Source of the DNA: Byssovorax sp.
Lineage (GTDB): Bacteria > Myxococcota_A > Polyangia > Polyangiales > Polyangiaceae
Length of the DNA: 64,000 bases
Assembly: GCA_025362495.1 (NCBI GenBank)
Contig: JANYGI010000126.1
Coordinates: forward strand, 117,815 to 181,814
Reading direction: 5' to 3'
The stretch's first letter is position 1. Every line of letters starts with the position of its first letter. The notes under the pieces were generated by a model that worked only from the letters and a program-made list of their open reading frames with translations, had not been told where the DNA came from and made no database searches. This document shows positions 6,705 to 11,466 of the stretch, piece by piece. A program made the position numbers and the translations under genes.

Positions 6705-9700
6705 TCACCGACCGACGCGCTCGAGCCAGCGGAGATGGCCGAGGCGGTCGAAGAGCGCGCGCGCCGCGGCGAAGTGGGGCTCTCGAGCGGGATCGCTGGC
6801 CTCGGCGTGACGGCCGAGATCGTTGTGGGCGAGGCCTTGCTCGAAGGGCATCGCGAGGCGCTCGGCCTCGGCGAGGCTTGCGGCAAAGGCCCGTCGCGCC
6901 CGCGCGAGGTGCCCTGTGCGCGCGTCGAGGAGGCCTTGCAGGCGAAGGGCCGTGGGCCGGCCGACGGCGTAGATGCCCGCGTAAGAGTGCATCTTGCGGC
7001 AGATCAACCGGGCTTGGCGGCCGAGCGCGTCGCGGTCCCGGGCCGACGTCGCGCGCTCCCAGAGCACGAAGATCGCGTCTCCCGTCGCCAGGCATCCCCG
7101 GTAGAAGCGGAAGCCCACGACTCGAAGCTGCGCCAGGTGGAAGAGCGTCTTGTCGATGGCGCGCCTCGCGCTCTCGCGGTCGCCGACGAGCAAGTGGGCT
7201 TCGGCCACGACACCGTGGGTGATCCACTCCGAGGGATCGTTGCGGTAGTCCTCGGCGAGCGTGCGTCGCCGCTCGAAGAGGGCGATGGCCGCGTCGCCGT
7301 TGCCCAGCGAGAGCGCGCTCTGCGCCTTGCCGCCGAGGGCCCAGATCTGGGTCTGCTTGTTGCCGCTCTTCTGCCCCGCGCTCTCGAGCCGATCGCACAG
7401 CACGGCCGCGTCGTCGGGCCGACCGGTGAGGCCCTCGAGCAGGATCAGGAGGCCCAGGCACAGCTCGACCTGCCGAGAATCCTGGATGTCCCGGGCCTGC
7501 GCCATCGCCACGTCGATCGCGCCGCGGGCCTCGCGGAAGCGGCCGGCGCGCAGCGCCGAGAACCCCTGGAGCAACGAGACCCAAGCGAGGCCCTGGCGAT
7601 CGTCGAGAGCCTCCGCGGTCTCCTTCGCGCGCGCCTCGTACAGCATCTGGAGCCGCGGGAGCGGCAGGGCGCTGAGCCCGATGCCGAGCGTGACGTAGCC
7701 TTGAACCAGCTCGAGCGAGAGGCCGAGGCCGCTCGCGAGGTTCACCATCCGCAGCGCCGCGCCGAGGCCGTGGGCCCACTTCTGCTGCAGGAAATGAATC
7801 TGCGTGAGGCGCTGCGCGGCCCGCGTCGCGCCGAGGAGGCGCGCGCGCTCGGCGGGATGGAACGCGCGGGGCGGCAGCGGGCGCAGCAGGATCCGCGCGT
7901 GCGGGGCGAGCTCGCTCACGAAGCGCAGCACCGTCGCCGCGCGCGAGTCGTCGTCGGCGATCGGCTCGCCGCAGAAGCGACGCAGCGCGGCCCGCGTGAG
8001 CCTCTCGGCCTCGGGCAGCAGGCCGACGTTGAGCGCCGCCTCGCCCAGCTGCGACTCGAGCTGCGCGCGCAGAGGCTCGTCGAGCAGCGGCGCGCCGCGC
8101 GCGGGGGACGCGTCGGCGAGCGCGAGGGCGCGGCGGAAGAAGCCCAGCGCCTCGCCCGAGGCCGTCGCGGCGAGGGCGGCTTGCCCGGCCTTCACCAGGT
8201 ACTCGAAGGCCTTGTCGGGCGCGCGCGCGGTGGTGAAGTGGTGGACGAGATCGGGATAAAATGCCGTGATTTCAGGCGTATTTGCGTACCTCGCCTCGAT
8301 GGCGGAGCCCGCCGCCGCGTGTAGCCTCCGCCGCTCGTCCGCGTCGATCGCGCCGTGGATGATCTCGCGGAGCTTGTCGTGGGCGAAGCGGAGGCGACCG
8401 CCGTCGACGTCGATGATCTGCCGCGCGCGCAGCTCTTCCACGGCCTCGAGCTGGGCCACGTCGTCGAGGCTCATCGCTGCGGCGAGCACGTCGGTGTCGA
8501 TCTCGCGGCCGAGCACCGCCGCCATCCGCGCCGCGGCGAGCGCGCCTTTGCCGAGGGCGCCCACGCGTCGGATCACCATGTCGCGCAGCAGCTCGGGCAG
8601 CGGCAGCGCGTCGTACGACGCGAGGCGGGCTCCGCCGAGGGGTTTCACTTGCCACTCGCCCGCGTCGTTGCGGAAGAGCATCCCCTCGCTCACGGCAGAG
8701 CGAACGTACTCGGCGACGAAGAACGGATGACCCTCGGATCGCTCGACGAGGAAGCGAATGAACGCCGCGGGCGGCGCCTCCATCGCGATCATGTCGCTCA
8801 CCATCCGCTCGACCGCGGGGGCGTCGATGCGCCCGAGCTCGAGGTGAGTGACGTCGGGCGCGGCCAGCAGATCGCGGAGCTCGTCGCTGCGCTCTTCGGT
8901 GCGGTACGTGGCGAGGAGCAGCACGCGCGCGGCCGCGAAGTAGGCGTCGTCGAGCGCCTTCAGGAAGCTCATCGAGGCCTCGTCGGCCCACTGGACATCT
9001 TCGAGCACCAGCACCAGCGGCTGGACCTCGGCGAAGGCCGCGATGGTGCCGGCGAGGCAGCCGTTGAGGCGCGCGCGCGCGCCGGCAGCGTCTAGCGCGG
9101 CGAGCTTCGGGTAGAAATGCTGACCCGGGAGCGACGCTATCGACGGCTCGTGGACGGCGAGCGCCGGGCCGCGCGGTCCGAGGACGCGCTCTGTCTCTTC
9201 GAGGCCTTGTTCGCGGCACCAGTCCACGATCGTCGCGAGCAGATGCCGGAACGGGTGGAGGGAAGCGGCCTTGACGTCGGCGCTCGCGTCGAGCTCGGCC
9301 GCGACGGAGACGCACTGGCCGGTGACGATGCCGAGGCCGCGTCGGTGCGCCGAGATGCCGACCTCGAGGGCGAAGCGCGTCTTGCCGACTCCACTCTCGC
9401 CGCCCACGAACACCCGCCCGCCCCGCGCGACGCGCACGTTCTTGAGCTTGGCGTCGACGATCCCGAGGGCGCTGGCGCGGCCGGCGAGCCGCGGACGGTA
9501 GAGGTGGGGCTCGGCGCGGCGCGCGGGCAAGCGCTCGTCGGCGCCGAGCCGCCGCAGCACCGCGGCCACGTCGTCCGCGTACCCGACGCGATCGCGCGGA
9601 CGCTTCTGCAGCAGCCCGAGGATGATCTCTTCGAGCTCCGGAGGCACGTCGCTGACGCGCGCGGAGGGGCGCTCGGGCGGCTCGCGCACCTGCTGATCGA

Positions 9701-10520
9701 GGACCTGCTCGACGGTGCCGACGAAGGGCGCGCTGCCGGTGATGCTCTCGTACATCATGCAGCCGAGCGCGTAGAGATCGACGCGAGCATCCATGAGCTC
9801 GCCGTCGATCTGCTCGGGGGCCATGTACGCCGGGGTGCCGAGGAAGCCGTCGCCCAGCTCGAGCACGTCGCGGCCGCCCGCGCCGCGGAGCTGCATCGCG
9901 AGCCCGAAGTCGACGAGCACCGGGCTTCCATCCGGCCGGATCATGACGTTCTCGGGCTTGAGATCCCGGTGAACGAGCCCCATGCCGTGCACGAACGCGA
10001 GGGCGTCGCAGATGTCGCGGAGCAGGCCGAGGAGCTGCGGGAGAGCGCCGTTCGCCGCGCGGACGAAGCGCGGCCTCGCGACGTCGATCCGGAGATCGGC
10101 GATGCGGTTGGCGACCGGCGTCACCCTGGCGAGCCGCCCGAGGGTGTCGAGCTCGGCGACGTCGGCGTTGTACTCACGCAGCGTCCGCCCCTCGACGACT
10201 TCCATCGCGTACCAGGGCAGATCGCCCTCGATCCCTTCGGCGACGATGCGGACGACGCCGGGGTGATCGACGCGCCGGAGGGCGTGGATCTCGCGTCGAA
10301 TCCCCGAGAGCAGGCTCGCGTCCGCGCTCTCCACCGTCTTCAGCGCCACGCGCTCGCCGGTCTCGGCGTGCTCGGCGAAGTACACCACCGCCATGCCTCC
10401 GCGCCCGAGCGGGCGCAGTAGACGAAAAGCGCCGATGGTGCGAGGGAACACGCCATCCGCGGACCGGCCGGCGCGGGCCCCCCGGCCCTGGACGAGCTTC
10501 GTTGTCGCGTCGCCTCGCAT
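6705..10520 (-). CDS. Serine/threonine protein kinase with AAA ATPase and TPR-like region (PknK-like)
   Basis: Kinase LGRGGMAVVYFAEHAETGERVALKTV...HRDLKPENVMIRPDGSPVLVDFGLA; Walker A FVGGESGVGKTRFALEV; Walker B LVLVLEDVQWAD; C-term helical repeats. Confidence 0.9.
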   Translation of the reverse strand: MRGDATTKLVQGRGARAGRSADGVFPRTIGAFRLLRPLGRGGMAVVYFAEHAETGERVALKTVESADASLLSGIRREIHALRRVDHPGVVRIVAEGIEGDLPWYAMEVVEGRTLREYNADVAELDTLGRLARVTPVANRIADLRIDVARPRFVRAANGALPQLLGLLRDICDALAFVHGMGLVHRDLKPENVMIRPDGSPVLVDFGLAMQLRGAGGRDVLELGDGFLGTPAYMAPEQIDGELMDARVDLYALGCMMYESITGSAPFVGTVEQVLDQQVREPPERPSARVSDVPPELEEIILGLLQKRPRDRVGYADDVAAVLRRLGADERLPARRAEPHLYRPRLAGRASALGIVDAKLKNVRVARGGRVFVGGESGVGKTRFALEVGISAHRRGLGIVTGQCVSVAAELDASADVKAASLHPFRHLLATIVDWCREQGLEETERVLGPRGPALAVHEPSIASLPGQHFYPKLAALDAAGARARLNGCLAGTIAAFAEVQPLVLVLEDVQWADEASMSFLKALDDAYFAAARVLLLATYRTEERSDELRDLLAAPDVTHLELGRIDAPAVERMVSDMIAMEAPPAAFIRFLVERSEGHPFFVAEYVRSAVSEGMLFRNDAGEWQVKPLGGARLASYDALPLPELLRDMVIRRVGALGKGALAAARMAAVLGREIDTDVLAAAMSLDDVAQLEAVEELRARQIIDVDGGRLRFAHDKLREIIHGAIDADERRRLHAAAGSAIEARYANTPEITAFYPDLVHHFTTARAPDKAFEYLVKAGQAALAATASGEALGFFRRALALADASPARGAPLLDEPLRAQLESQLGEAALNVGLLPEAERLTRAALRRFCGEPIADDDSRAATVLRFVSELAPHARILLRPLPPRAFHPAERARLLGATRAAQRLTQIHFLQQKWAHGLGAALRMVNLASGLGLSLELVQGYVTLGIGLSALPLPRLQMLYEARAKETAEALDDRQGLAWVSLLQGFSALRAGRFREARGAIDVAMAQARDIQDSRQVELCLGLLILLEGLTGRPDDAAVLCDRLESAGQKSGNKQTQIWALGGKAQSALSLGNGDAAIALFERRRTLAEDYRNDPSEWITHGVVAEAHLLVGDRESARRAIDKTLFHLAQLRVVGFRFYRGCLATGDAIFVLWERATSARDRDALGRQARLICRKMHSYAGIYAVGRPTALRLQGLLDARTGHLARARRAFAASLAEAERLAMPFEQGLAHNDLGRHAEASDPAREPHFAAARALFDRLGHLRWLERVGR

Positions 10521-10664
10521 CCCGGTTGCAAGAGAGACGAAGCCGCTGCGGGTGTCAATCCGCACAAATTCCCGCGTGGAGTCGTGATCGAGGCCAGACG
10601 AGAAGGATCGAGCCCGCACGGTTTCGGCGCGTCCACGGTTGACGTTGCGCCCGGCTCAGGGCAG

Positions 10665-10784
10665 GCTGGCCGCTTCGACGGGAGTAGTTCCACCGCATCC
10701 GGCGGTGAGGGGCGATCGACATACTGGCCTCGCGGCCCGGTCCCCCACCTCGGTAACCCGAGACGAACGAGACGTCCGACCAGC
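10665..10784 (+). promoter_or_regulatory. yybP-ykoY family (Mn2+-sensing) riboswitch
   Basis: Conserved GGGAGTAG (10680-10687), GATCGACATACTGGCC (10714-10729) and GTAACCCGAGACG (about 10753-10765), closed by GCTGG (10665-10669) / CCAGC (10780-10784); lies upstream of a TMEM165/GDT1 gene, a known target class. Confidence 0.88.
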
Positions 10785-10881
10785 TCTGCTGGCCGGCGTC
10801 GCGTATTCCTCCCCCGGGATCCACGAAGCTCGGTCAGGCAGCCCCCAGAGCCGCCCGCCCACCGAGGCTCCGAGAACCCCG

Positions 10882-11466
10882 ATGCCCGATCTTCACCTTC
10901 TTCTCTCCGTGTTCGGCGTGATCTTCATCGCCGAGATCCCCGACAAGACCGCGCTCGCCGCGCTGGTGCTCGCGACCAAGTTCCGGCCGCTGCCGGTCTT
11001 CCTCGGCACGGCGCTGGCCCTCACGGTGCAAAGCATCATCGCCGTCGCCGCGGGCGGTCTGCTCTCGCTCCTGCCCACGCGGCCCGTGCACATCGGCGCC
11101 GGCGTCCTGTTCCTGGTGTTCGCCGTGATGATGTGGCGCCGCCAGGAAGAGGCCGTCGAGGCCGCCGCCGGGGGCGCGACGGCCAAAGAGCCCACGTTCT
11201 GGCGCGCGTTCGGGCAGGTGTTCGGCGTGGTGTTCCTTGCCGAGTGGGGCGATCTCACCCAGCTCGGCACGGCCACGCTCGCGGCGCGCTACGGCAAGCC
11301 GCTCACGGTGTTCGTCGGCTCGACCCTCGCGCTCTGGTGCGTCGCGGCGATCGCCGTGTTCATCGGTCATCGCGCCGGGAAGGTGCTCAATCCCGCGATC
11401 ACGAAGAAGGTCGCCTCGGTGATCTTCGTGGCCCTCGGGATCGCCCTCCTCGTCGGCTGGATGTGA
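10882..11466 (+). CDS. TMEM165/GDT1 (UPF0016) family cation (Mn2+/Ca2+) exporter
   Basis: Two copies of the family signature: IFIAEIPDKTALAAL and VFLAEWGDLTQLGTATLA, in a multi-TM protein; start chosen at ATG 10882. Confidence 0.9.
   Translation: MPDLHLLLSVFGVIFIAEIPDKTALAALVLATKFRPLPVFLGTALALTVQSIIAVAAGGLLSLLPTRPVHIGAGVLFLVFAVMMWRRQEEAVEAAAGGATAKEPTFWRAFGQVFGVVFLAEWGDLTQLGTATLAARYGKPLTVFVGSTLALWCVAAIAVFIGHRAGKVLNPAITKKVASVIFVALGIALLVGWM

Follow-up and report, generated by a model that had tools for sequence, protein, structure and literature searches.

Riboswitches of the yybP-ykoY family are stabilised by Mn2+ in their P1.1 helix, which permits expression of the gene downstream. In the crystallised Xanthomonas oryzae aptamer, L3 reads ACA48U49ACU52, the N7 of A48 contacts Mn2+, and A10 of L1 makes an A-minor contact (PMC6754395). 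In L. lactis, engineered compensatory changes in P1.1 and the terminator showed that the two compete (PMC11087558). Control of UPF0016 genes by yybP-ykoY elements is already well known, such control being reported for 328 out of 333 UPF0016 genes screened in bacteria, and the bacterial GDT1 members studied have been linked to Mn2+ only (PMC7380456). The element described here is a further case, one missed by Rfam, and the open-access literature yielded no paper linking the yybP-ykoY riboswitch with Myxococcota or Sorangium.

The element lies in a window of 64,000 nucleotides (the whole stretch of DNA analysed) from a Byssovorax genome. The earlier note had placed conserved yybP-ykoY pieces in the right order ahead of a UPF0016 gene, and all three are present in that order on the + strand, as is the ATG at 10882: GGGAGTAG at 10680-10687, GATCGACATACTGGCC 3' of it at 10714-10729, and finally CGAGACG at 10768-10774. 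Written as the pattern GGAGTAG-N15..45-TCGACATNCTG-N25..55-CGAGAC, this three-part core occurs once in the 10.8-Mb genome. Across 284 genomes of the phylum it has one further match, which lies in a distant genome and is not accompanied by the remaining structure. The element sits between the GDT1 gene and a divergent gene on the minus strand (6705-10619), the place expected of a leader. The divergent gene encodes a large serine/threonine kinase that includes an AAA_16 ATPase domain. A DNA-level plasmid search gave nothing but short chance matches.

The assignment of the downstream gene to the UPF0016/GDT1 family, also made in the earlier note, holds (PF01169, E=1.5e-43). The element lies in the leader of a gene for Mn2+ homeostasis, as it does in the relatives described below. 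The protein carries the motifs E-I-P-D-K-T and E-W-G-D-L-T; in this protein and its Polyangia orthologues the first motif reads E-x-P-D-K-T, not E-x-G-D-(K/R)-(S/T). For this protein, no NCBIfam model scored above its cut-off and no solved structure was similar in sequence. A gene for an MgtE magnesium transporter (TIGR00400; 11622-13019) follows in the same direction, 155 nt downstream of GDT1. Its inclusion in the regulated unit was considered and dropped, as no MgtE-like gene was seen beside GDT1 in the reading frames of the relatives, judged by eye from the translations and without a family search.

Family membership was examined with three covariance models, whose E-values are rough but have large margins. 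R1 was built from six Polyangia leaders, R2 is the leave-one-out version without the window, and R3 draws its training set entirely from beyond the window's subgroup. Its six leaders are those of E. coli mntP and alx, Hydrogenophaga, Embleya, and two other Polyangia, each of them a Mn riboswitch that is known or recognised by RF00080. As its alignment was fitted to the structure of R2, R3 is independent in sequence and not in assumed structure. R3 scores 67.5 bits (E=1.5e-13) at window positions 10673-10778, and across the 10.8-Mb genome the element is its best and sole significant match (E=2.6e-11); a second weak site in the same genome (C166, 26.7 bits) was rejected, as it lacks the L3 core. 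The element was also the top R3 match in all five genomes tried, and R3 recovers an Acinetobacter RF00080 element unused in its training (54.7 bits). On the whole genome R2 gives the window 94.7 bits (E=4.3e-20), the next best match reaching 22 bits. In the reverse direction, the best R1 match of the E. coli mntP locus is its riboswitch (30.6 bits, 5.8e-7); the same is true of alx (19.4 bits, 5.7e-4), and of both loci with R2. In all, R2 finds six leaders in other bacteria, each known or supported by RF00080, and these are the six on which R3 was trained. An Embleya replicon (Actinomycetota) also has a sub-threshold Mn riboswitch ahead of a GDT1 homologue (L071, 965-1064; RF00080 26.9 bits, R2 33.7 bits). 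With these scores, and with the L1 and L3 adenosines in place, the element is a member of the yybP-ykoY family, as the earlier note had proposed.

The earlier note had also suggested a search with RF00080 and treated the lack of a significant score as grounds for abandoning the identification. With Rfam 15, RF00080 gave no match to the window at the gathering score and none up to E<=10, exactly the result so described. However, this silence says little, because the same library under-detects accepted members: the E. coli mntP leader reaches 41.6 bits against a cut-off of 45, alx is unlisted at E<=1, and the RF00080 model alignment draws no P1 helix. The absence of a score therefore does not refute the identification. 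The under-detected E. coli loci are L049 964-1072 (mntP) and L048 1374-1500 (alx). A chance resemblance in GC-rich DNA, with which the missing RF00080 match would agree, is already refuted, because the element is the genome-wide best match of R2 and R3, both of which exclude the window, and because its helices carry compensatory changes; the core is also absent from 10 Mb of random sequence matched in composition. We give chance practically no weight.

The features of the leader are collected in Table 1. They form a four-way junction of P1.1/L1/P1.2, P2, P3/L3 and P4, and the alignment A3 supports P1.1, P2, P3.1, P3.2 and P4, with 94.6% of cells paired. Five pairs in A3 are changed on both sides, a count equalled by none of 500 shuffles and far above that obtained when the alignment is slid. 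Two of the pairs changed on both sides fall in P1.1, which is GACG/CGTC in the window and AAGG/CCTT in most relatives. When folded alone, the aptamers of the five relatives adopt the four-way junction, P1.1 and P1.2 included, the latter shifted or partial in some. The window aptamer keeps P2 to P4, and P1.1 is absent from its minimum-energy fold, which is compatible with an inherently weak switch helix and is no proof of one.

Table 1. Features of the GDT1 leader and its gene in window coordinates
Feature	Position	Strand	Sequence or partner	Evidence
yybP-ykoY (Mn2+) aptamer, whole covariance-model match	10673..10778	+		R3 67.5 bits, E=1.5e-13; leave-one-out R2 94.7 bits
P1.1 switch helix, 5' strand	10677..10680	+	GACG; pairs with 10773-10776	
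L1	10681..10686	+	GGAGUA	Invariant in all relatives; A10683 corresponds to A10 of the A-minor contact (PMC6754395)
P1.2, 5' strand	10687..10690	+	GUUC; partner GAAC 10765-10768	Paired in 6/6, U-G in one
P2 hairpin	10691..10707	+	CACCGC-AUCCG-GCGGUG	One pair changed on both sides; folds
P3 hairpin (P3.1, L3, P3.2)	10709..10746	+		Covariation; folds
L3	10719..10725	+	ACAUACU	A10721 corresponds to Mn2+-sensing A48 (X. oryzae) / A41 (L. lactis); A invariant in relatives
P4 hairpin	10749..10762	+	CUCGG/CCGAG	Covariation; folds
P1.1, 3' strand	10773..10776	+	CGUC	Common to aptamer and competing hairpin
Competing (OFF) hairpin, proposed attenuator	10768..10803	+	CGAGACGUCCGACCAGC-UCU-GCUGGCCGGCGUCGCG	Dominant predicted fold in 6/6 leaders; no U-tract
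GDT1/TMEM165/UPF0016 family cation exporter, 194 aa	10882..11466	+		PF01169 E=1.5e-43; orthologues behind the same element

On one point of anatomy the earlier note was mistaken. It had the aptamer closed by a GCTGG/CCAGC stem, whereas the closure is the short P1.1 helix, GACG/CGTC. The letters of the upstream GCTGG (10665-10669) and of CCAGC (10780-10784) are indeed complementary, but the upstream GCTGG is missing at that place in four of the five relatives, the fifth having only CTGG, and in folding CCAGC pairs instead with a downstream GCTGG (10788-10792), just as it pairs with a downstream partner in all relatives. CCAGC is thus part of the hairpin at 10768-10803, and closure by the outer stem is very improbable.

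Compared with the RF00080 types of X. oryzae and L. lactis, the window has the same P1.1/L1/P1.2, P2, P3 with a 7-nt L3, and P4 (PMC6754395, PMC11087558). It shares the L3 letters ACAUACU with the X. oryzae aptamer (PMC6754395), and in both the window and the L. lactis switch the 3' strand of P1.1 is common to the aptamer and a downstream hairpin (PMC11087558). L1 is an GGGGAGUAG-type strand with A10, here CGGGAGUAG with A10683. The window differs from these types in being very GC-rich, in its GACG/CGUC P1.1, in an OFF hairpin free of a U-tract, and in going undetected by RF00080. The E. coli mntP and alx leaders have the same core and fold as the window; they differ in controlling MntP and Alx rather than GDT1, in lower GC and, for alx, in a long P4. 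The UPF0016/GDT1 leaders of Hydrogenophaga and Acinetobacter agree with the window in both gene family and riboswitch family. With RF00080 they score 112 and 57.6 bits, above its cut-off, while the window's Polyangia subgroup falls below it.

The sensing loop also bears on ligand identity. An intact aptamer that mainly answers another ion, or one whose specificity has drifted, could be imagined given that some eukaryotic GDT1 relatives have been linked to Ca2+ (PMC7380456) and that Cd2+-bound structures of the aptamer are mentioned (PMC6754395). Yet the L3 of the window is identical in letters to the Mn2+ loop of X. oryzae, with the discriminating adenosine present as A10721 (PMC6754395), and the tie of the studied bacterial GDT1 members is to Mn2+ only (PMC7380456), which makes this reading improbable.

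Downstream of the junction, CGAGAC and the 3' strand of P1.1 can pair instead with a downstream arm to form the hairpin at 10768-10803, whose matching arms are conserved in all six sequences. P1.1 of the aptamer and this hairpin are mutually exclusive pairings. One position is shared by the two. In the five relatives it is a C, with a G as its partner in P1.1 and again in the hairpin; the window has a G at this position, and each of the two partners has changed to C. This is the same three-part compensation as in the engineered P1.1/terminator mutants of L. lactis (PMC11087558), occurring naturally.

Of the two marks of an intrinsic terminator, a GC-rich hairpin and a run of U, the hairpin is present and the U-tract after it is absent; no canonical terminator pattern and no canonical sigma-70 promoter were found. 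The end of the hairpin lies 78 nt from the start codon in the window and 48-98 nt across the six leaders. With no U-tract and a gap of 78 nt, therefore, the leader offers no obvious case for classical intrinsic termination or for a hairpin that simply occludes the ribosome site. The riboswitch could respond to Mn2+ and yet reach its OFF state through Rho-dependent termination, pausing or reduced translation instead of a self-sufficient terminator, a prospect that we put somewhat below even; translational control is known for E. coli mntP. While the lack of a U-tract and of a terminator pattern speaks for such a route, a hairpin that captures the P1.1 strand, with matching arms in six of six leaders, has the same layout as the L. 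lactis switch, which is transcriptional (PMC11087558), and its end lies well ahead of the start codon in every leader.

The 5' leader of GDT1 is thus very probably a yybP-ykoY Mn2+ riboswitch of the ON type, with a downstream hairpin as the proposed attenuator. The element itself, its place in the family, its conserved position before GDT1 and the two mutually exclusive pairings are observed directly, while the solved and assayed relatives point to Mn2+ as the likely ligand, to the ON direction, and to attenuation at the level of transcription. At high cytosolic Mn2+, the ion would contact the N7 of A10721 and so bridge the loops L1 and L3 in the four-way-junction aptamer. Such bridging would lock L1 and stabilise the short P1.1 helix, which would keep its 3' strand (CGAGACGUC) out of the hairpin at 10768-10803. 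With the hairpin blocked, RNA polymerase would read through and the exporter would be made; without Mn2+, the hairpin would capture the 3' strand of P1.1 and expression would stop. In this OFF state, the U-tract-free hairpin may silence the gene by intrinsic termination, through Rho, by pausing or at the level of translation.

Among 241 Polyangia genomes, 16 have a GDT1 orthologue at E<=1e-20, and the element stands upstream of six of these: the window, L004, L029, L030, L031 and L040, with the same core and differing stems. An R1 scan of the 241 genomes returned these six as strong matches (102-113 bits), all of them preceding the orthologous GDT1 gene. It also returned four weak matches (25-30 bits), two of which were inspected and lack the core. 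The Kofleriaceae genome L028 has an element identical to the one in L040. The other ten sampled orthologues (L005, L032-L039 and L041) have no upstream element, also with R3, and some of them directly follow another gene. Weak R1 matches in five other Myxococcota genomes (L043-L047) were set aside as chance, being without the L1, L3 or CGAGAC core. RF00080 itself rises above its cut-off in one of the 241 Polyangia genomes.

These results put Mn2+-sensing riboswitches on record for Polyangia (Myxococcota), a group in which the standard model detects hardly any, and they show that RF00080 under-detects members of the family, E. coli mntP and alx among them. It is proposed, tentatively and at somewhat less than even confidence, that the Polyangia elements belong together as a GC-rich subgroup within the Mn2+ riboswitches, one unrecognised by Rfam, in which the U-tract-free competing hairpin may act through Rho, pausing or another non-canonical stop. 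Since the three-part compensation engineered in L. lactis has a natural parallel in the window, the model in which P1.1 and the downstream hairpin compete gains support.
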